From positions 1,584,134 to 1,648,133 of the forward strand of contig NZ_QVFV01000001.1 of assembly GCF_004212215.1 (NCBI RefSeq): a stretch of 64,000 bases of DNA. The letters are read 5' to 3'. The notes beneath the pieces are model-generated. The model ran no database searches. It worked only from the letters and a program-made list of their open reading frames with translations, and was not told where the DNA came from. Below, one piece after another: positions 2,747 through 51,055 of the stretch; the first letter of the stretch is position 1; each line of letters starts with the position of its first letter. The DNA is from Leptolyngbya iicbica LK. GTDB lineage: Bacteria > Cyanobacteriota > Cyanobacteriia > Phormidesmidales > Phormidesmidaceae. A program made the translations under genes and the position numbers.

Positions 2747-2805
2747 TCAGCGGTCATTCATGGAATTCTCAAGTACCCTCATAGGCAATCGGGTGCGATC
2801 GCGCT
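2747..2805 (+). repeat. 59-base dispersed repeat, copy B
   Basis: Same element and orientation as copy A at 1080-1138, with about four mismatches. It ends in a HIP1 octamer. The two copies bracket about 1.6 kb containing the YHS gene. Confidence 0.85.
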
Positions 2806-2996
2806 GGGCTCTGACGGCATCACACCAGTCAGGTCGCTCAATCGGCTAAACTGTGTAGTACGTCAGCACTGATTCAGCATCCTGCCGTGTGAGAGGGATC
2901 TGATTTCTCGCCCCATCGCGAGCGGTGAATGGTAAGCCTGTTTCAACGCCGCTTAGCCTGCAACTCCCTGATTTTCGCTGCTAACTTTTTTGCGCT

Positions 2997-3728
2997 ATGA
3001 CTACCCGGATTTCATCAACTCAGCGATCGCCAGTGTCCTCTAATCGCTCATCCGCCAAATCGATCAAGGTGGTGCGCTACATTGTGGCGACCGTCCTGCT
3101 GATTGCGGGTATGGTGGCGGCCAAAGGGGCGATCGCTTGGGCAGCGGAGACTTTTGTCTACAACCTGCCCCTGTTCGGCGGGCTGCTCAAGAGCCTGGAA
3201 CTGATGGAAGTCACCAATGTCGTAGTGTTTGCGATTTTGGGAGTCAGTTTAGGCGCATTTACGTTATGGCTGCCCCGGCGCTGCGGCTTGTGGATCAAGC
3301 TCATTCCGTTTGTCATTGCGGTGCCGCTGGTATTTATGACGGGCTATGCGGTGCGTTATCACCTTTGGGTCAATCAGGTGGCGGTGGAATCAGAATTGTT
3401 GCCCGCGCAGGCCGAACAGGTCACCAACACCCTGCTCAACCAGGCCACTGGCACGGATGGCGTCATGGGATTCTTTCGGTACACCGTGCAGGTGCCCATC
3501 TTGCCCACCGATTTGCGCGCCCTGCAAAACATTGATGAAGACGACAAATGGTTCCGGTCTGAGCTGACCCGCTTCAGCGGCTTAGAACCCGGCTTATTTA
3601 CCATGGTCTTTAAGATCACTGGCTGGAGCATTCGCGCCTTTTATGTGCTGCTAGCGGTCATTACCGCCAGCCTGTACTTTGCCAAAGGCTTGTTGTGGGT
3701 CGATCGCAACCGTCAGACCCAGCGCTAA
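2997..3728 (+). CDS. Conserved membrane protein of unknown function
   Basis: 243 residues. A basic, Ser-rich N-terminus precedes a membrane segment (about 25-50). Two more lie at about 74-98 and 101-121, and a fourth at 208-232. The loop between the third and fourth segments (about 122-205) is hydrophilic and likely extracytoplasmic. Not recognised as a named family. The stop codon is seven bases from the mobA start, so the two are probably co-transcribed, though no functional link is evident. Confidence 0.75.
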   Translation: MTTRISSTQRSPVSSNRSSAKSIKVVRYIVATVLLIAGMVAAKGAIAWAAETFVYNLPLFGGLLKSLELMEVTNVVVFAILGVSLGAFTLWLPRRCGLWIKLIPFVIAVPLVFMTGYAVRYHLWVNQVAVESELLPAQAEQVTNTLLNQATGTDGVMGFFRYTVQVPILPTDLRALQNIDEDDKWFRSELTRFSGLEPGLFTMVFKITGWSIRAFYVLLAVITASLYFAKGLLWVDRNRQTQR

Positions 3729-3735
3729 GTCAAAG

Positions 3736-4320
3736 ATGAACCTCTCAGCCGTCATCCTTGCGGGTGGAAAAAGTGAGCGCATGGGGCAAGATAAAGCCCT
3801 GTTAACCATTGAGGGGGTGCCGCTCTTGCGTCGCACTTGGGCCGTGGCGCACCGCCTCACACCCGACGTGCGCATTGTGACCTCGCGCCGCGATCGCTAT
3901 CAATCCCTGCTGCCACCGGATGTGACCTGGCTGGACGAATCCACACCGGGGGGGCCACTCCTGGCTTTTGAGCAGGCATTGCGGGCATGCTCCTCGGCTG
4001 CTACCGACTGGCTGCTCTTACTCGCTTGCGATCTTCCCAATTTGCAGGTCGAGCCATTGCAGCAGTGGTCGCAATCACTAGCCCAGTTGTCGCCTGAGGC
4101 GATCGCTCATGTACCCAAAACGGCTCAGGGATGGGAGCCGCTATGTGGCTTTTATCGCTCCACGAGTTTGCCGTCGTTGCAGGAGTATCTGTCCACCGGG
4201 CAGCGATCGTTCCAAGCCTGGTTGAATGCCGCCCCCGTCGTGGCGATTACGGATGTGCCAATCGGCCTGCTGGCTAACTGCAACACCCCAGAAGATTGGC
4301 ATCGCCTGACGCAAACATAG
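3736..4320 (+). CDS. mobA: Molybdenum cofactor guanylyltransferase MobA
   Basis: Transfers GMP from GTP to molybdopterin to make the MGD form of the molybdenum cofactor in the cytoplasm. 194 residues from ATG 3736, the usual length. The N-terminal nucleotide-binding signature LAGGKSERMGQDKA (residues 8-21) is diagnostic. LLLACDLPNL matches the conserved metal-binding DxP-type motif. An upstream in-frame ATG at 3679 lies inside the preceding gene and would add a tail before the signature, so it is rejected. Tightly packed behind the membrane protein gene. Confidence 0.9.
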   Translation: MNLSAVILAGGKSERMGQDKALLTIEGVPLLRRTWAVAHRLTPDVRIVTSRRDRYQSLLPPDVTWLDESTPGGPLLAFEQALRACSSAATDWLLLLACDLPNLQVEPLQQWSQSLAQLSPEAIAHVPKTAQGWEPLCGFYRSTSLPSLQEYLSTGQRSFQAWLNAAPVVAITDVPIGLLANCNTPEDWHRLTQT

Positions 4321-36583: not shown

Positions 36584-39130
36584 ATGACCCAAGACGAGCT
36601 ACTGCAGATCATTGAGAAAGCTGCCGCCGAAGGGGCGACAAAACTTGACCTCCGCGAGAACCAACTGAGCAGCCTGCCCCCCGAACTCGGCCAACTGCAA
36701 AATTTATCTGCGCTCGACCTCCGCTCGAACCAACTGAGCAGCCTGCCCCCCGAACTCGGCCAACTGCAAAATTTATTAACGCTCGATCTCCGCTCGAACC
36801 CACTGAGCAGCCTGCCCCCCGAACTCGGCCAACTGCAAAATTTATCTGTGCTCTACCTCAGCTCGAACCAACTGAGCAGCCTGCCCCCCGAACTCGGCCA
36901 ACTGCAAAATTTATCTCTGCTCGACCTCCGCGAGAACCCACTGAGCAGCCTGCCCCCCGAACTCGGCCAACTGCAAAATTTATCATGGCTCGACCTCCGC
37001 TCGAACCAACTGAGCAGCCTGCCCCCCGAACTCGGCCAACTGCAAAATTTATTAAGGCTCTACCTCAGCGGTAATCCGCTACCGATTCCGCCCGAAATTC
37101 TAATTCAATCATCTCAGCCGCAGGCCATCTTCGACTTCTACTTCGCCATCCAAGACCCTAGTGAGACTGATCGCCTCTACGAAGCCAAGTTCCTGATTGT
37201 TGGCGAAGGGGGGGCGGGTAAAACCTCCCTGGCTAAAAAGATTCAAGATCCCAATTACAAACTCAATCCTGACGAAGACTCCACCCACGGTATTGACGTG
37301 ATTCAGTGGCGCTTCCCTTTAGACGATGGGCAAGATTTTCGCGTCAATATCTGGGACTTTGGCGGTCAAGAAATCTACCACCAAACCCATCAGTTCTTTC
37401 TCACCGAGCGCTCCCTCTACGCTCTCGTCGCCGACACCCGCAAAGAAAATACCGACTTTCCCTACTGGCTCAATTCCATTGAGCTATTCGGCGGCGACAG
37501 TCCGGTACTCATGATCAAAAACGAGAAGGGCAACCGTCCCTGTAACGTCAACGAAAAACAACTCCGGGGCGACTTCCAGTACATCCAGGAGTTTCTGCCA
37601 ACCAACCTGCAAGACGGTCGCGGTCTCGACGCCATCAAAACCGCCATTCAGTATTACGTCACCCGTCTCGATTTCGTCGGTATGCCTTGGCCCAAGACCT
37701 GGAGCCAGATTCGCGAAGCGCTGGAACAGGACGATCGCGATTTCATGTCCCAGCACGACTACTTTGCCCTCTGCGATCGCAACGGCGTCACCGATCGCAC
37801 CGAAATGCTGCGCATCAGCGATTTTCTGCACCAGCTCGGTATCTGTCTGCACTTTCAAAAAGACCGCGTCCTCAAACACCTCGTCATCCTACGCCCCGAG
37901 TGGGCTACCAACGCCGTCTACGCCATCGTCAAAAACGACACTGTCGCCGCCGCCAAAGGGCTCTTTACCCGCACCGATGCCGAAACCATCTGGGCCGAAG
38001 CCAACTACGCCAACCTCGGGGACGAGCTACTACAGCTGATGGAAAACTTCAACCTCTGTTACCCCATCCCCGGCCTGCCCGACGCCTACATCGCCCCCCA
38101 ACTGCTCGACTTCGAGCCGCCCCCCTACGACTGGGAGGCCACCAACGCCCTCACCCTGCGCTACGAATACGAGTTCATGCCCAAGGGCATTCTCACCCAG
38201 CTCATCGTTCGCCTTTACCGCTGGATTGAGCAGCAACAGCTCGTCTGGCGCAGCGGCGTGGTGCTCACCAACGGTCGCGCCCGCGCCGAAGTCATCGAAA
38301 CCTATCGCCCCTACAAAGGCGAAATCCGCCTCTGCATCTCCGGCCTCCACAGCAAAGAACTGCTCAGCATCGTCGCCAACGAACTCGACCAGATCAACGA
38401 CTCCTTTGAAAAGATCAAGGTCAGCAAAAAAATTCCCTGCAACTGCGAAGATTGCTTGGAGGATCGCGAGCCCCACTACTTTCGCCTGCAAACCCTTGAT
38501 CGCTTCCTTGCCAAAGGCCGCACCGACGTCACCTGCGAAAAAAGCGCCCTAGACGTGCCGATCCGTAGCCTCACCGCCGTCATTCCCACGGGCGAGCTCT
38601 TTGCCGATTTGCGCGATCGCTATGAGCAGGCCGAGCTACTGCCCGGTCTGGAGAAGCAAGCCACCCAAGATAAGTTCGATCGCCTCAAGCAACAACACAC
38701 CGAGTACTATCCAGCCAATCAGTTTTACGATGTCTTTCTCGCCCACAACAGCCAAGACAAGCCCTTTGTGCGGCAGGTGTATCAACAGCTCAAAAAAACG
38801 GGCCTGCAACCTTGGCTCGACGAAGAAGACATTGCCCCCGGCACACTGTTTCAAGACGAGATCCAGAAAATCATCCAACAGACCAAAACCGCTGCCATTT
38901 TCATCGGTCCTACAGGGCTCGGTCCCTGGCAAAACGTAGAACAGCGAGCCTTTATTTCTCAGTGTGTAAGCCGCGAAATTCGAGTCATTCCAGTTCTGCT
39001 ACCCGGTGTTCATGCCATTCCAGAAGAGCTGATTTTCTTACAAGAGTTCGGCTTCGTTTCCTTTGAAACCAATGATGATGAGACGGCAATCGACCGCTTA
39101 CGGTGGGGCATCACCAGAGAAAAATCTTAG
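36584..39130 (+). CDS. LRR-ROCO-TIR protein, candidate immune or signalling STAND-like protein
   Basis: 848 residues. Residues 21-158 are six near-identical 23-residue leucine-rich repeats plus a degenerate seventh. A Roc GTPase domain follows (about 203-365) with P-loop GEGGAGKTS (207-215) and switch II WDFGGQE (257-263). The COR region is about 370-610, then a CNCEDC cluster (619-624). The C-terminal TIR domain (713-848) begins VFLAHNSQDKPF, has WLDEEDIAPG, and a W782-x3-E786 pair where NAD-cleaving TIRs carry the catalytic Glu. ROCO proteins are GTP-regulated dimers; bacterial TIR effectors often deplete NAD. Sensor (LRR), switch (ROCO) and effector (TIR) in one chain suggest self-contained defence, by inference. 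Confidence 0.9.
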   Translation: MTQDELLQIIEKAAAEGATKLDLRENQLSSLPPELGQLQNLSALDLRSNQLSSLPPELGQLQNLLTLDLRSNPLSSLPPELGQLQNLSVLYLSSNQLSSLPPELGQLQNLSLLDLRENPLSSLPPELGQLQNLSWLDLRSNQLSSLPPELGQLQNLLRLYLSGNPLPIPPEILIQSSQPQAIFDFYFAIQDPSETDRLYEAKFLIVGEGGAGKTSLAKKIQDPNYKLNPDEDSTHGIDVIQWRFPLDDGQDFRVNIWDFGGQEIYHQTHQFFLTERSLYALVADTRKENTDFPYWLNSIELFGGDSPVLMIKNEKGNRPCNVNEKQLRGDFQYIQEFLPTNLQDGRGLDAIKTAIQYYVTRLDFVGMPWPKTWSQIREALEQDDRDFMSQHDYFALCDRNGVTDRTEMLRISDFLHQLGICLHFQKDRVLKHLVILRPEWATNAVYAIVKNDTVAAAKGLFTRTDAETIWAEANYANLGDELLQLMENFNLCYPIPGLPDAYIAPQLLDFEPPPYDWEATNALTLRYEYEFMPKGILTQLIVRLYRWIEQQQLVWRSGVVLTNGRARAEVIETYRPYKGEIRLCISGLHSKELLSIVANELDQINDSFEKIKVSKKIPCNCEDCLEDREPHYFRLQTLDRFLAKGRTDVTCEKSALDVPIRSLTAVIPTGELFADLRDRYEQAELLPGLEKQATQDKFDRLKQQHTEYYPANQFYDVFLAHNSQDKPFVRQVYQQLKKTGLQPWLDEEDIAPGTLFQDEIQKIIQQTKTAAIFIGPTGLGPWQNVEQRAFISQCVSREIRVIPVLLPGVHAIPEELIFLQEFGFVSFETNDDETAIDRLRWGITREKS
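36644..37057 (+). repeat. Six tandem 69-base LRR-coding units
   Basis: Six units of exactly 69 bases encode 23-residue leucine-rich repeats. A core of about 44 bases, starting ACTGAGCAGCCTGCCCCCCG, is identical in all six; variation is confined to a few codons at the surface positions around LDLR-S/E-N. This indicates recent duplication or active homogenisation. Confidence 0.93.
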
Positions 39131-42760: not shown

Positions 42761-45700
42761 GTGCGCGTGGCTGAGATTAACCCCTGTCAGGCGAGCGGCT
42801 TATCGGCGGATGCACGTCACCCTTGCGATCGCGCTTTAGATGCTTGCCAAGCCTGGGATCACCTGGTTAATGCCGTCGCCCTGCGGATTCGGCGATCGCT
42901 CGACCTGGCAGAGATCTTGCAATCGACAACGGACGAGATTCAGCCATTGCTAGGGTGCGATCGTGTCGTTATTTATCGGTTTGCCCCAGATTGGAGCGGG
43001 CAAGTGGTCACCGAAACCGTCGCCCATCCACAATGGAGCATTCTCGATCGCGTCATCCACGATCCGTGCTTTCAAGCGAGTTGGCTCAAACCTTATCAAG
43101 ACAACCGCTACTTTGCCCTGAACGATATCACCCAGGCTGACATCACTCCCTGTCATGCCGAGTTTTTGGCCAGCTTTCACGTCAAAGCCAATTTAATCAT
43201 CCCCATCTTAGAAACCGACACCCTCTGGGGCTTGCTCATTGCCCACCACTGCCAGGGAGCCCGACTTTGGCAAGCAGCTGAAATTGAAGGACTGCAACTG
43301 CTCGCGGTGCAGGTCGGCATTGCCATTCATCAGGCGAGGTTGATGGCGGAATTGCAAGCCGCCAAAACTCAGCTCGAAAGCACCGTGGCGGCTCGCACCA
43401 GTGCCCTAGCTCAGAGTCGCGATCGCCTGCGCGACGAAATGCAGCGTTGCCAACAACTCGTCACCATCGTGGCCTCTTCGCACGATGCCATTCTCAGTAC
43501 TGATCTCAACGGCATCGTCACCAGTTGGAACCAGGGTGCCGAAGCTCTGTTTGGTTACACCGCCGCCGAGATCATCGGTCAATCGTTGATGACGGTGATT
43601 CCCGAGGCTTTGCAGGCCGAAGAAACCCAGATGTTGGAGCACGTGCATCAGGGGCAACCGATTACCAGCTACGAAACCCAGCGGTGTCGCCGAGACGGTC
43701 AACTGATCGACGTGGCGATTACCATTTCGCCCTTGCGAGATGAAGACGGCAACCTCACTGGCGTATCGCGGATTCCCCGTGATATCTCAAGGCGCAAGCA
43801 AGAAGAACGGCAGCGACAAGCCGCTGAGGCCAATCTCGCCGAAAGCGAGCAGCGACTGCAACTGGCCCTCGAAGCCTCGGGCGATGGCCTCTGGGACTGG
43901 AATATCACGACCGGAGAATTATTTTTGAGCGATCGCTGGGGGGCCATGCTGGGCTTTGCCCCCGGCGAGTTAACCCCTAACGTCACCACCTGGGAGGAGT
44001 TGATTCATCCCGATGATCGGCCCTGGGTAGAAGAACGATTGCAGGCTCACTTAGCCGATCCGACCGTGCCTTACCAATTTGACTATCGCCTGCAAACTCA
44101 AACAGGGGACTGGAAATGGATCGCTAACTACGGCAAGGTCGTCACTTGGGATGCCGCTGGTCACCCCATGCGCATGGCCGGCACCCACCGCGACATTAGC
44201 GATCGCAAACAATATGAAACCCAAATTAAACAGAGCGAAGCCACCAAGCAAGCCTTGATCCAAAGCATTCCCGACCTCCTGGTCCAGATTCGTCAAGACG
44301 GCTTATATCTGGACGTGCTGAACCGTGACAGCACGAATGTTGACATCTTTGCCTACGACAGTAATCGCGCCGGAGCCCATGTCACTGAAGCGTTACCGCC
44401 CGATTTGGCCCAGCAGCGGTTGGCCTATGTGCAGCAGGTGATTGCCACCCAACAGCCCGTGACGTATGAATATCAGATCGAGGTTGAGGGCACGATCCAT
44501 GACGAAGAGGCGCGGTTGATTCCACTGGATGACATTAGCGTCTTGGCCGTCATTCGCGACATTAGCGATCGCAAACGCATTGAAGCGCAACTCCGGCAGA
44601 GCGAGGCGACGAAACAAGCGCTGATTCAGGCCATTCCCGACTTTTTGGTACGCATGCGGCAGGATGGCGTCCAATTAGAGGTGATCAACGTTGGCAACGT
44701 TTACTGCCTGCATCCTGCTCCAGCACCAATTCAACGTCACAACGTGCTGGATATTATGCCTGCTGACATCAGTCAGGAGCGCATTCAACTCGCGCAACGG
44801 GCGATCGCGACGGGGCAGACGCAAGTCCAAGAATATGCCTTTACTCACGATGGACGCACCATCTACGAAGAAGCCCGCATCTCACCGATGACCGACGATG
44901 AAGTGCTGGTGATGGTGCGCGATATCAGCGATCGCAAGCAAGCCGAGCACGACTCCCAAGCCAACAAAGAACAACTAGAACTAGTCCTGAAAGCCTCGTC
45001 TGAGGGCTTTTGGGATTGGAACTTGCTGACCAACGACATTTATTTTTCGCCCCGGTGGAAAAGCATGTTCGGCTATGCCGACCACGAACTCGAAAACACC
45101 TTCGAGATGTGGGAATCGCTGATTTTTGAAGAAGATCGAGCCACCGTGCTACAACTAGTCGAAGACTACAACAGCGGCAAAATTGACACCTTTGCCACGA
45201 TCCAACGCTTCCACCACAAAAACGGCTCCACCGTTTCCGTCCTCTCGCGGGCCATTCATCTCAAAAACGATACGGGCCAAGTCATTCGCATGGTAGGCAG
45301 CCACCTCGACCTCACCCAAACCATGCACATGCAAGAGGCGTTGCGCAATTCGGAAATGCAGCTCAGCAGCATCTTAGATAGTTCATTAGACGGCATTATG
45401 GCGTTTCGCTCCATCCGCGATGCGCAGGGACACATCATCGATTTTGAGTGGCTGCTGAGCAATCCCACCGCTTGCCAAATCGTCAACAAATCAGTCAACG
45501 AGCTCATTGGGCACCACCTGCTAGACGTGCTCCCTGGCAACCGCACCGACGGACTATTCGATTTATATATCCAAGTGGTCGAAACGGGAAACCCCATACA
45601 ACGGCAGTTTCACTATGCCCACGACGGCATTGACACCTGGTTTGAAAATGTGGCGGTGAAGCTCGGCGATGGCTTTGCCGTCACATTTCGCGACATCTCC

Positions 45701-46774
45701 AATATCAAACAGTCGGAGCAAGCCCTGCAACAAGCCAACCAAACCCTGGCGACCCATCTCGATGATCTCCGCCAACGCAACCAAGAAATGCTCTTGCTCA
45801 GCGAGACGAGCGATTTCTTGCAGGCTTGCCGCACGTTAGAAGAGGCTTGTTCCGTCATCACGACCTTAGTCGAGCCCCTCTTTCCTGATTGCTCCGGGAG
45901 TTTTCACATCACCTGTGCCTCGCGCAATCGGATTGAAGCCGTGGCCCAATGGGGCGATCGCGGCTCGTCTAAACCCGAATTTCAACCCCATGATTGCTGG
46001 GCCTTGCGGCGGGGTAAGTGGCACCAAACCACCCCCGAATCGTACGGGCTGCGGTGTCGGCATATGACGACCACCAACCCGCAGTTGACGACCCTTTGCA
46101 TTCCCATGATTGCCCAGGGCGAAACCCTCGGCATGTTTCACCTCAACAGCGAAGATAGTCAGTTACAGAGTGAGTCAAAGCGGCAATTGGCCCGCACGGT
46201 GGCCGAGCAAGTTGGGCTCGCGATCGCCAACCTGCACCTCCGCGAAACCCTGCATAATCAGAGTATTCGCGACAGTCTCACCGGCCTGTTTAATCGCCGA
46301 TATCTAGAAGAGTCGCTGCAAAAAGAGATCGCCCGAGCCCAACGCCACCAAACCTCTGTCGCGGTGGTCATGGTCGATGTCGATCACTTCAAAGCCGTCA
46401 ACGATACCTACGGCCATGATGTGGGCGACATTGCGCTACAGGCCATTGCCCAAGTGCTCAAAACCGCGATTCGGAGCTCTGACACTGCCTGCCGCTATGG
46501 GGGTGAAGAGATGACGCTGGTATTTCCTGACACGCCGCTGGATGAAGCGATCGCCCTCGCCGAAGAACTCCGACTGAGTATCCAACACCTCGTTATCAAA
46601 GAAAAGAGTCAACAACTCTGCGACCTCTCGGCCTCGTTTGGCGTGGCGGTATTTCCGCAACACGGCATCCTCGTCCCAGACTTAGTTCGAGCAGCCGATG
46701 CGGCCCTTTACCGAGCCAAAACCATGGGCCGCAATCAGGTGGTTGCCGCAGGCTTCAACGCCCAGGAGAAGTAG
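42761..46774 (+). CDS. Cyanobacteriochrome-type diguanylate cyclase (GAF-PASx6-GAF-GGDEF)
   Basis: 1337 residues from GTG 42761; a GTG two codons on, better spaced from GGGAGG, is equally possible. The first GAF (about 32-195) is a bilin-binding cyanobacteriochrome domain of the DXCF class: DPCF (101-104) with Cys103, and Cys131-His132 in PCHAEFL, 28 residues apart. Six PAS units follow (about 230-345, 363-485, 490-605, 612-725, 735-855, 865-985), then a GAF (1015-1160). The GGDEF domain (1168-1330) has GGEEM (1247-1251) and an inhibitory-site RSSD (1238-1241). A light-regulated c-di-GMP synthase; no membrane segment. No EAL domain. Confidence 0.9.
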   Translation: MRVAEINPCQASGLSADARHPCDRALDACQAWDHLVNAVALRIRRSLDLAEILQSTTDEIQPLLGCDRVVIYRFAPDWSGQVVTETVAHPQWSILDRVIHDPCFQASWLKPYQDNRYFALNDITQADITPCHAEFLASFHVKANLIIPILETDTLWGLLIAHHCQGARLWQAAEIEGLQLLAVQVGIAIHQARLMAELQAAKTQLESTVAARTSALAQSRDRLRDEMQRCQQLVTIVASSHDAILSTDLNGIVTSWNQGAEALFGYTAAEIIGQSLMTVIPEALQAEETQMLEHVHQGQPITSYETQRCRRDGQLIDVAITISPLRDEDGNLTGVSRIPRDISRRKQEERQRQAAEANLAESEQRLQLALEASGDGLWDWNITTGELFLSDRWGAMLGFAPGELTPNVTTWEELIHPDDRPWVEERLQAHLADPTVPYQFDYRLQTQTGDWKWIANYGKVVTWDAAGHPMRMAGTHRDISDRKQYETQIKQSEATKQALIQSIPDLLVQIRQDGLYLDVLNRDSTNVDIFAYDSNRAGAHVTEALPPDLAQQRLAYVQQVIATQQPVTYEYQIEVEGTIHDEEARLIPLDDISVLAVIRDISDRKRIEAQLRQSEATKQALIQAIPDFLVRMRQDGVQLEVINVGNVYCLHPAPAPIQRHNVLDIMPADISQERIQLAQRAIATGQTQVQEYAFTHDGRTIYEEARISPMTDDEVLVMVRDISDRKQAEHDSQANKEQLELVLKASSEGFWDWNLLTNDIYFSPRWKSMFGYADHELENTFEMWESLIFEEDRATVLQLVEDYNSGKIDTFATIQRFHHKNGSTVSVLSRAIHLKNDTGQVIRMVGSHLDLTQTMHMQEALRNSEMQLSSILDSSLDGIMAFRSIRDAQGHIIDFEWLLSNPTACQIVNKSVNELIGHHLLDVLPGNRTDGLFDLYIQVVETGNPIQRQFHYAHDGIDTWFENVAVKLGDGFAVTFRDISNIKQSEQALQQANQTLATHLDDLRQRNQEMLLLSETSDFLQACRTLEEACSVITTLVEPLFPDCSGSFHITCASRNRIEAVAQWGDRGSSKPEFQPHDCWALRRGKWHQTTPESYGLRCRHMTTTNPQLTTLCIPMIAQGETLGMFHLNSEDSQLQSESKRQLARTVAEQVGLAIANLHLRETLHNQSIRDSLTGLFNRRYLEESLQKEIARAQRHQTSVAVVMVDVDHFKAVNDTYGHDVGDIALQAIAQVLKTAIRSSDTACRYGGEEMTLVFPDTPLDEAIALAEELRLSIQHLVIKEKSQQLCDLSASFGVAVFPQHGILVPDLVRAADAALYRAKTMGRNQVVAAGFNAQEK

Positions 46775-46775
46775 T

Positions 46776-47804
46776 ATGCAAATTCCAGCTATTCCCGCCA
46801 ATGAATCCAGTCGTTTGGCGGTTCTGTATTCCCTCAAAATTCTCGACACAGACCCCGAGGAACGCTTTGATCAAATTACGCGCATCGCTCAACGGGCGTT
46901 TCGGGTACCGATCGCCCTCGTCAGCTTAATCGATGCCGAGCGGCAGTGGTTCAAGTCTTGCCAGGGCTTCTGTGCCAGCGAAACCCCGCGAGATGTCTCG
47001 TTTTGCGGACACGCCATTCTGGAAGATCGGCCTCTGATTGTGCCTGATGCCCGCGATGACCCTCGGTTTCACGACAATCCCTTTGTAATGGGAGAGCCCG
47101 GCATCCGGTTCTATGCAGGGATGCCCCTCACCGTACTCGATGGCTATCGCCTGGGCACCCTGTGCCTGATCGACCAACAACCGCGCACCTTAGACACCAA
47201 TGAAGAACTGCTCTTGATCGATCTTGGGCATTTAGTCGAACAAGAACTGGCCGCTTGCAAAACCTCGGTGCTCGAAGAACTCCAACAGCGTAATCAGGAA
47301 ATGGAGCTCCTCAGCCGTCTCAGTGACTTTTTACAAGCCTCACTCAGTTTGCCAGAGGCGTTTGAGGTGATGCGGAGTTTACTAAACCCCCTGTTTCCGG
47401 GCTGTTCCGGCAGTGTTTTCACGATTTGTGCGTCGCGTAATCGGGTCGAGCAAGGGGTGACTTGGGGCCAACATCAGTACTCGATCGAGGCCTTTGCCCC
47501 CGAAACCTGCTGGGCCTTGCGGCGGGGGCGATCGCATTTTGTCAATCCCGAACGGTCAGCGCTGCAATGTGCCCATGTACACCAGCACTCCGAGCATCCA
47601 ACGGCGGCCACGCTCTGCATCCCCATGATTGCCCAGGGCGAAACCCTGGGTCTATTCTTCATCAGTGCTATAGAGTTAGGGACGCTCAATCCGGCGTTGC
47701 AGCAGTTGGCTCATACCGTCGCCGAACAAATTGCTTTGGCGATCGCCAACCTCAATCTCCGCGAAACGCTGCAAAATCAAAGCTATCAGGCGTCGTCATC
47801 ATAG
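46776..47804 (+). CDS. Tandem GAF-domain protein, truncated paralogue of the upstream cyclase
   Basis: 342 residues from ATG 46776, two bases after the upstream stop, with an AGGAG site inside the end of that gene. The first GAF (about 20-165) is of the common sensory type (VALVSLIDAERQWFKSCQG, then FCGHAIL) without bilin-type Cys. The second (about 185-335) is a close copy of the last GAF of the upstream cyclase, including CWALRRG, TLCIPMIAQGETLG and AIANLxLRETLxNQS. It stops exactly where the cyclase continues into GGDEF, ending SYQASSS. Likely a duplicate that lost its output domain, now perhaps a sensory partner. Confidence 0.85.
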   Translation: MQIPAIPANESSRLAVLYSLKILDTDPEERFDQITRIAQRAFRVPIALVSLIDAERQWFKSCQGFCASETPRDVSFCGHAILEDRPLIVPDARDDPRFHDNPFVMGEPGIRFYAGMPLTVLDGYRLGTLCLIDQQPRTLDTNEELLLIDLGHLVEQELAACKTSVLEELQQRNQEMELLSRLSDFLQASLSLPEAFEVMRSLLNPLFPGCSGSVFTICASRNRVEQGVTWGQHQYSIEAFAPETCWALRRGRSHFVNPERSALQCAHVHQHSEHPTAATLCIPMIAQGETLGLFFISAIELGTLNPALQQLAHTVAEQIALAIANLNLRETLQNQSYQASSS

Positions 47805-48011: not shown

Positions 48012-48821
48012 ATGACTCATCCGGTTTCCGATTCGGCCCCAGCCACTGCGTCTCAGCCCGCATCGGCAAACATCTCCCCTGTCAGTGAGGCCGCATCCAC
48101 TCACAGCAGCCCTTGGCAGCGAGGTGGGGTCTGGCTGGCCTGGGTCGTCTATGTGGGCTACCTATTGCTGAGTGACTTGCCGCCAGGGCCGTCGCTGCTC
48201 CACACCTCACCCGATACTCTGCGCGAAGCGGGGGCACTCAGCCTCAATTTTTGGTTCGTGTTGCCTGCACTCTTTCCCGCCCAAGCGCCCACCCTGCACC
48301 CAGCGTTGGAAGGCTTATTTAATGTAGTCGTCACCTGGGGGCTGTTGTTCTGGGGATTTGCGATCGAGGGTCGGCAACAGCGCGTGCCCATGCTGCCCTT
48401 TCTCATCGGCACTGCCTTTTTGACCAATGTGTTTTATCTGCCGTGGTTGGGGCTACGACAATCTCGCCGCGATCGCCCCACGCGCCCCCTCAACCGTTTA
48501 GAGACCATCACCGAAAGCCGTGCCTATCCCATCGCGTTGATGATTATTCTGCTGGCGGCGATCGCGTGGGGGCTATGGGGCCGCGCCGATTTTGGCAGCA
48601 TCAGCGATCGCTGGACCGACCTTGTGCAAATCGTGCAGAGCGATCGCCTCGCCTACTCTTTTTGGATCGACCTGCTGGTGTTCTGGCTGTTTCAAGGTTG
48701 GCTGGTGCCGGACGACATGGCCCGTCGCCAGTGGCAAGATCCCGTCGCACTGTGGTCGGCCCGCTTGATTCCCGCCTTTGGCCTGGTCATTTATTTTCTA
48801 CGACGCCCCCCAATTACTTGA
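48012..48821 (+). CDS. Conserved multi-pass membrane protein
   Basis: 269 residues. A Ser/Ala/Pro-rich hydrophilic N-terminus (1-38) precedes about six hydrophobic segments: 40-57, 78-92, 103-122, 128-150 (MLPFLIGTAFLTNVFYLPWLGL), 175-192, and the C-terminal pair 220-232 and 250-265. The phrase LPFLIGTAFLTNVFYLPWLGLR-like, near residue 130, recurs in cyanobacterial hypotheticals. No function known to me. It stands alone, about 200 bases after the GAF protein. Confidence 0.78.
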   Translation: MTHPVSDSAPATASQPASANISPVSEAASTHSSPWQRGGVWLAWVVYVGYLLLSDLPPGPSLLHTSPDTLREAGALSLNFWFVLPALFPAQAPTLHPALEGLFNVVVTWGLLFWGFAIEGRQQRVPMLPFLIGTAFLTNVFYLPWLGLRQSRRDRPTRPLNRLETITESRAYPIALMIILLAAIAWGLWGRADFGSISDRWTDLVQIVQSDRLAYSFWIDLLVFWLFQGWLVPDDMARRQWQDPVALWSARLIPAFGLVIYFLRRPPIT

Positions 48822-50174: not shown

Positions 50175-50323
50175 TCGTCGTCCGTCTGATTTAGCGTCCA
50201 GGTCAGCGCTTCGCATTACAAAGCCTCTACAGCGGGTGGTAATCCTGAGAGGATGTGTCAATATAGGGAGCTAGATTTGACCTTGCTAAATGCACTGTTT
50301 TGGGTAATGGGCGAATGATTGGG

Positions 50324-51055
50324 ATGAAACATCTGCGGTGGTGGAGCTTAGCCTTGTTGATCGCAGCGGGTAGTGTGACGGCGCCCCGGGCCGGGGCCGA
50401 TGAGTTTCCCCCCTGTGCGCCCCCTAATGCGAACGAGTATCTGCTGCTCGTGCAGGGTGATACGGTCGAAGCCCGCGATCGCATTCAAAACCTGTTGCCC
50501 ACCACCACCATCGTGAGTGTGTGTCGCTATCTGGACGATGTCGTGGTCCGGGCCGGTGGTTTCACCAGTTTGGAAAACGCTAATGCCTGGGCGCAATACT
50601 TGACCGAAGCCGAAGGCGCCCAAGCCTTTGTCGCCCGGCCCGCCGCCCCCGGCGAAGTGACCACCAGCACTCCCATCGCCGCCGAGCCCGTCGCCCCAGC
50701 AGTCACGCCCGAACCGGCACCTGCGCAGCCGACCACGCCGGAGCCGACGCCCGCAGTAACCGACCCCGTGGCCGCTGCCGAAGTCGCATACGCCCCCAAA
50801 CTGTTAGGCGAGGGCTATGCCGTATTGGTGAATTACAGCAATAACCCCGACATCGCCAAACAGCTCCAGCAATCCCTTAATCAGCCCGTGGGACTCGCCA
50901 TTTATCAACAGCGGCCTTTTTTGCTCGCCACCCAGAGCACTGACCCGCAGGCGGCCGCGCAAGTGTTACAGACGCTGAGCAACAGCCGCTTTGGGGCCTT
51001 CATTGTGGATAGTAGCGAAGTCGTGTTGCTCTCCGAAGCCGTCGCGACTCCCTGA
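50324..51055 (+). CDS. Secreted protein of unknown function with Pro-rich linker
   Basis: 243 residues from ATG 50324; ATG 50315 is also possible. Residues 1-25 form a signal peptide (LALLIAAGSVTAPRAGA). An N-terminal domain (about 28-105) includes two Cys and a LLLVQGDTVEARDRIQNLLP core. A Pro/Thr/Ala-rich linker (105-160) and a second domain (165-240) with the similar phrase YAVLVNYSNNPDIAKQLQQS follow. Both halves resemble SPOR-like alpha/beta domains, so peptidoglycan binding is possible but speculative. Periplasmic location inferred. Convergent with purM, nine bases away. Confidence 0.75.
   Translation: MKHLRWWSLALLIAAGSVTAPRAGADEFPPCAPPNANEYLLLVQGDTVEARDRIQNLLPTTTIVSVCRYLDDVVVRAGGFTSLENANAWAQYLTEAEGAQAFVARPAAPGEVTTSTPIAAEPVAPAVTPEPAPAQPTTPEPTPAVTDPVAAAEVAYAPKLLGEGYAVLVNYSNNPDIAKQLQQSLNQPVGLAIYQQRPFLLATQSTDPQAAAQVLQTLSNSRFGAFIVDSSEVVLLSEAVATP

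Follow-up and report, generated by a model that had tools for sequence, protein, structure and literature searches.

The predicted cyclase gene and its domains

The window analyzed here is a stretch of 64,000 nucleotides from Leptolyngbya iicbica LK (contig NZ_QVFV01000001.1, positions 1,584,134 to 1,648,133, forward strand), and the subject is a gene at window positions 42761-46774, together with a shorter gene directly behind it. Pfam and NCBIfam placed GAF1, six PAS domains, a second GAF domain (GAF2) and a GGDEF domain with an inhibitory site (I-site), in that order, in the open reading frame (ORF). A first-pass annotation made from the sequence alone had read this frame, with boundaries that agreed exactly with the ORF list, as a DXCF cyanobacteriochrome fused to a synthase of cyclic di-GMP (c-di-GMP). 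The fusion was upheld by the sequence, the predicted fold and a conserved lineage of like proteins; the assignment as a DXCF cyanobacteriochrome joined to a diguanylate cyclase is a well-supported prediction, and the pairing is known from SesA. The least ordinary parts of the locus had been passed over: the cysteine-rich GAF2 beside the GGDEF domain, and a GGDEF-less copy one base downstream. Features of the main gene are given below.

42761-46774, plus strand: cyanobacteriochrome-PAS6-GAF2(G2)-GGDEF gene, 1337 residues (ORF list, Pfam, NCBIfam)
42848-43375, plus strand: GAF1, predicted DXCF-type cyanobacteriochrome domain (sequence matches, motif, model, tree)
43067-43069, plus strand: codon of C103, the second cysteine, in DPCF (cysteine in 26 of 26 aligned GAF1 relatives)
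43151-43153, plus strand: codon of C131, predicted canonical bilin-attachment cysteine, in TPCH (cysteine in 25 of 26)
43448-43816, plus strand: PAS1 (PF00989, E = 5.7e-21)
43844-44221, plus strand: PAS2 (PF08447, E = 8.8e-24)
44222-44590, plus strand: PAS3, weak (PF08448, PAS_4, E = 4.9e-6)
44591-44965, plus strand: PAS4, weak (PF08448, PAS_4, E = 1.5e-6)
44966-45364, plus strand: PAS5 (PF08447, E = 2.3e-17)
45362-45760, plus strand: PAS6 (PF08448, E = 3.3e-8)
45797-46264, plus strand: GAF2, cysteine-rich "G2" domain, residues 1013-1168 (Pfam GAF, model, alignments)
45995-46099, plus strand: candidate G2 site, C1079, H1088, C1099, H1101 and C1113 (conservation in alignments)
46250-46750, plus strand: GGDEF domain (PF00990 positions 2-161 of 161, E = 9.1e-50)
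46472-46483, plus strand: RSSD I-site, residues 1238-1241 (motif)
46499-46513, plus strand: GGEEM signature, residues 1247-1251 (motif)

A GGGAGG sequence abuts the GTG at 42761, and another GTG lies two codons downstream, at 42767; because of this spacing the GTG at 42767 is the likelier start codon. The gene is one among many of its kind, as the 5.7-Mb genome held 43 GGDEF matches and 39 places resembling GAF1. The pattern [D/E]-x-C-F was present in 10/23 aligned GAF1-like places of this genome, with the main gene counted.

The 28 residues that the first-pass annotation had set between the DPCF and CH cysteines were verified as the distance from C103 to C131, and DPCF and TECH of TePixJ (PDB 3vv4) lined up with these two residues. 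GAF1 matched a PDB chain sequence at E = 7.2e-40, the top matches being cyanobacteriochromes; with this value and that of the GGDEF match, both calls are beyond chance. The GAF1 structure model (pLDDT, the predicted local distance difference test, 89.6) was compared by Foldseek, and ranks 1-41 were cyanobacteriochromes, engineered fluorescent derivatives or cyanobacterial phytochrome GAFs (TePixJ 4fof, E 4.2e-16). GAF1 is thus a cyanobacteriochrome-type GAF with both the canonical cysteine and the DXCF second cysteine. The TePixJ type assigned earlier agreed with motif and fold, while the accompanying "violet" was dropped, the TePixJ type being blue/green in the accessible portion of PMC11284453. 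Isomerization of phycocyanobilin to phycoviolobilin is described there as typical of DXCF domains.

The same domain recurs with G2. D-x-C-[F/L] was present in 26/26 aligned GAF1 domains from G2-bearing proteins, and the canonical cysteine in 25/26. Among the family genomes, 8 had a GAF1 match at E ≤ 1e-55, sharing one frame with G2 in all 8; in the phylum sample, 5 of the 6 matches at E ≤ 1e-65 did so. A tree in which the 19 N-terminal G2-linked GAF1 domains were held as one clade improved by 7.1 log units on the free tree, in which a long sequence from the same genome (L015) fell among the G2-linked set; the one-clade test preferred the held tree. Four near-repeat loci were omitted, and 11 of 22 aligned own-genome paralogues were entered. 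The cyanobacteriochrome-G2-GGDEF architecture is, on these alignments and trees, an old and variable lineage.

Six PAS domains had been counted correctly: TIGR00229 yielded six stretches, and a Pfam PAS model scored on each segment (PAS3 and PAS4 weakly). The chain had also been called unusually long, which was not borne out, as PAS number ranged from 1 to 8 across 25 cyanobacteriochrome-GAF2-GGDEF frames (main gene included) and exceeded six in 6 of them. The GGDEF domain was found intact with its inhibitory site, as first described; it covers the full PF00990 model and holds a GG(D/E)EF-type signature (GGEEM), with an RxxD site (RSSD) where an I-site usually lies, five residues ahead of the signature. 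Methionine at the fifth place is ordinary (GGEEM in 35/76 motif matches among relatives), and the I-site was kept in 73/76.

The G2 family

GAF2 belongs to a distinct and uncharacterized cysteine-rich GAF family, here called G2, which occurs in three bacterial phyla and for which neither Pfam nor NCBIfam has a dedicated model. In Pfam, only generic GAF models matched GAF2; NCBIfam gave no match for four G2 segments at E ≤ 0.01, and no equivalog above its cut-off for 10 non-cyanobacterial G2 proteins at E ≤ 1e-40. Open-license literature, searched for the G2 motif and for iron-sulfur, heme or redox GAF domains with GGDEF, contained no G2 description as judged by titles, which is not proof of absence.

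G2 was present in at least 42/386 sampled Cyanobacteriota genomes (profile E ≤ 1e-20), at least 34/319 Pseudomonadota genomes (the phylum of a Betaproteobacteria metagenome-assembled genome; E ≤ 1e-15) and at least 23/321 Chloroflexota genomes (the phylum of a Chloroflexi metagenome-assembled genome; E ≤ 1e-15). These counts are lower bounds, and the cut-offs may favor cysteine-bearing members, though two stretches lacking the cysteines served for the first scan. Genome contigs were scanned with the alignment of GAF2; 78 loci were obtained, from the best 80 of 415 relatives, and with the main gene they made 79 frames. Outside Cyanobacteriota 72 places were found, 62 of them with loci, and all 62 were aligned.

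In the first alignment, of 80 G2 sequences, C1079, C1099 and C1113 were invariant. In the 62 non-cyanobacterial loci C1079 and C1099 were again invariant; 59 loci had C1113 (the other 3 have Glu), 51 had H1101 and 43 had H1088. The merged alignment held 141 sequences after removal of four repeat loci (72 clusters at 62% identity), with C1079 and C1099 in 141/141, C1113 in 138, H1101 in 128 and H1088 in 116. G1124 was the only other position to match the invariance of C1079 and C1099; nearly every other position varied. The three members in which Glu replaces the third cysteine (L187, L189 and L190) retain the other cysteines, and the replacement would be compatible with a ligand role.

A GGDEF domain shared the frame with G2 in 76/79 frames; the others were a GGDEF-less protein (L085), an early frame end (L089) and a contig end (L136). 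GGDEF followed G2 directly in 60/62 non-cyanobacterial loci, and the spacing from the last GAF2 helix to GGDEF was constant in 70/71 pattern-matched frames. A strong cyanobacteriochrome domain stood at the N-terminus of 18/79 frames (main gene included). G2 accompanies many different inputs and one output, and since it is conserved beside GGDEF under all of these, it may carry a signal common to all G2 cyclases.

The downstream gene without GGDEF

One base separates the stop codon of the main gene from the start of the second gene.

46764-46768, plus strand: AGGAG ahead of the downstream gene, within the main gene (sequence)
46776-47804, plus strand: downstream GAF-G2 gene, 342 residues, without GGDEF (ORF list, Pfam, comparison with GAF2)
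46851-47249, plus strand: N-terminal generic GAF of the downstream protein (PF01590, E = 2.3e-32, two stretches)
47310-47783, plus strand: G2 domain of the downstream protein (54% identity with GAF2)

The frame ends at the place where GGDEF would begin, and no GGDEF remnant was found behind it; the sole GGDEF match in the window is that of the main gene. The same tandem of cyclase and GAF-G2 gene occurs in L071, L076 and L077, and a similar GGDEF-less GAF-G2 protein lies at a contig start in L085. L071 is the closest relative (74% identity in G2), with its cyclase gene split over two frames. The break, between frames 81-2714 and 2750-4015, lies inside PAS6, and its cause may be real or one of assembly. 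Among loci followed by 1.1 kb or more of sequence, the tandem was present in 3/21 with a cyanobacteriochrome vs. 0/45 without; L071 was assigned to the cyanobacteriochrome class by hand, its GAF1 being in the other frame.

Diguanylate cyclases function as dimers, and a GGDEF-less partner could therefore silence or retune the enzyme. Tentatively, the downstream protein may be such a partner, forming a heterodimer with the cyclase; this is the weakest step of the proposal. The open-license literature yielded nothing on a GGDEF heterodimer with a GAF domain and a dominant negative, which again is not proof of absence. The gene could instead be a decaying cyclase copy without function, as its rarity and its end at the GGDEF boundary would suggest. 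Decay is doubtful, however, because in each of the five copies known the frame is open and the three cysteines are retained (H1088 is Tyr in L077), four of the five immediately follow a cyanobacteriochrome cyclase, and descent from one origin was not rejected. In the free tree (11 near-repeat loci omitted) the copies fell in two places, yet the one-clade test preferred the held tree, which was 5.5 log units better (approximately unbiased test, p-AU 0.571).

A 527-residue GAF-G2-GGDEF protein in L126 is laid out like the product of the downstream gene with a GGDEF domain added, and possibly pictures the ancestor of that gene. Elsewhere in the window, an 848-residue Roco protein is encoded at 36584-39130 (plus strand; leucine-rich repeats, Roc, COR-A, COR-B and a C-terminal TIR by Pfam), and frames of 269 and 251 residues at 48012-48821 and 50300-51055 (both plus strand) matched no Pfam family at E ≤ 0.001.

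Function of GAF2 and proposed mechanism

Three near-invariant cysteines with a histidine would suit a metal or iron-sulfur site or a thiol switch, and on this conservation GAF2 is reasonably likely to be a metal, iron-sulfur or thiol-redox input. Its model is a confident GAF (pLDDT 89.8) with mixed GAFs tied in Z as structural neighbors; among PDB sequences the G2 profile gave at best a partial match, with a phytochrome GAF (E = 2.7e-6). GAF folds are frequent as spacers and the domain layout is known in kind, so the protein could be a light-regulated cyclase of the ordinary SesA kind, with GAF2, standard in its modeled fold, as a structural dimer spacer whose cysteines serve folding. This is unlikely, given two cysteines that none of the 141 sequences from three phyla lacks while nearly every other position varies, and a domain that rides with many inputs but a single output.

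Alternatively, GAF2 could bind a small molecule, e.g. a cyclic nucleotide as in Lcd1 of Leptospira, rather than carry a metal or redox signal. The Lcd1 GAF with cyclic AMP (5w10, Z 16.4) was among the nearest folds of the GAF2 model, and it likewise precedes a GGDEF domain in the portion of PMC8846402 available. Its identity to GAF2 is, however, about 14%, the top folds were tied, no counterpart of the three-cysteine site is stated for it, and a nucleotide site would leave the near-invariant cysteines unexplained; this reading is quite improbable. A second bilin domain was judged very unlikely: C1099 (in C1099-x-H1101) lies 16 residues ahead of the conserved P1115, near the canonical position (C131 is 17 ahead of P148), but the helix that follows the canonical cysteine (residues 101-108 of the GAF1 model) was not predicted in GAF2, and the Cys/His site is retained in Pseudomonadota and Chloroflexota loci.

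The three cysteines and the fold matches (3mmh, Z 16.8) also brought up the free methionine-R-sulfoxide reductases (MsrC/fRMsr), which share the GAF fold and three cysteines. In these enzymes the three cysteines are catalytic and acidic residues contact the substrate. The candidate found no support: an alignment with E. coli MsrC, itself weak (local probability 35%), made the first cysteine roughly comparable with that of G2, but Cys100 was not opposite C1099 and the Glu/Asp of the conserved strands were not kept.

The protein is probably a light-regulated diguanylate cyclase that receives a second input through GAF2. From the observed domains, motifs, conservation, fixed spacing and tandem we infer the following chemistry, activity and pairing. 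In a soluble enzyme, phycocyanobilin would be attached at C131 and converted to phycoviolobilin, and C103 would add reversibly to the bilin to give a blue/green switch, as motif, fold and family suggest. The light signal would pass along a PAS chain of variable length, acting mainly as a dimeric relay, to GAF2, which at its fixed spacing before GGDEF would be the second, chemical input; its three cysteines and one or two histidines would hold a metal or iron-sulfur center or form a redox thiol site. GGDEF, gated jointly by light and by redox or metal state, would produce c-di-GMP, with the I-site limiting output. Through GAF2, the cyclase may also pair with the co-translated GAF-G2 protein, in which the GAF2 site and the coiled coil are retained and GGDEF is missing, to give an inactive or retuned heterodimer.

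The SesA chain is short, CBS-GAF-GGDEF, with the GAF directly before GGDEF. The main protein shares with it a GAF of the predicted phycoviolobilin type and a GGDEF domain that carries an RxxD I-site, and differs in the six PAS domains and G2 between light sensor and cyclase; this long relay and the second GAF input predicted at G2 are what is new relative to SesA. The Pfam scan found no CBS domain in the main protein, which is not classed as a SesA orthologue. In the accessible portions of PMC8846402 and PMC5871770, the phycoviolobilin cyanobacteriochrome of SesA (Tlr0924, Thermosynechococcus) drives GGDEF, on in blue and off in green light, and RxxD limits the enzyme; any light dependence of the main enzyme, its direction, and effects on motility or aggregation would be by analogy with SesA. 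The TePixJ GAF (PDB 3vv4, 4fof, 4glq) is of the same DXCF type and fold with aligned DPCF and CH cysteines, whereas TePixJ is of the chemoreceptor type (PDB name methyl-accepting chemotaxis protein) and GAF1 lies in a separate lineage of G2-linked domains in the tree. A precedent for control by a separate sensor protein is PapB-PapA, in which a BLUF sensor-only protein regulates a separate EAL c-di-GMP enzyme in a complex (PMC8846402, as far as its text was available); the domains differ, and pairing of the GAF-G2 protein with its cyclase is predicted here.

In its boldest form, the proposal is that G2 is an unrecognized metal, iron-sulfur or thiol-redox GAF gating GGDEF in at least three phyla, here by light and redox, with a redox-sensing dominant-negative subunit added; as a conjunction this is speculative. 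Several observations weigh against the mechanism set out above. H1088 is missing in 25/141 G2 sequences and H1101 in 13/141, and C1113 is Glu in 3. Eight of 14 GAF1 matches in the phylum sample, the weaker ones (1e-54 to 1e-50), lie outside any G2 frame, and in G253 the GAF1 sits in a 359-residue frame without G2. The GGDEF-less gene is absent from 18/21 cyanobacteriochrome loci with downstream room and present in 3/63 family genomes, and, with a small number of candidates scored in each genome, a full-length match to the downstream protein was found only in its own genome of the 386.

Cyanobacteria weigh light color vs. redox state in the choice between motile and sessile life. If the proposal is true, one protein would take both inputs beside its cyclase, making the integration of light and redox directly testable; many diguanylate cyclases of Cyanobacteriota, Pseudomonadota and Chloroflexota would gain, through G2, a signal that they sense; and a cyclase subunit that kept its sensor and lost GGDEF would be a new mode of c-di-GMP tuning.

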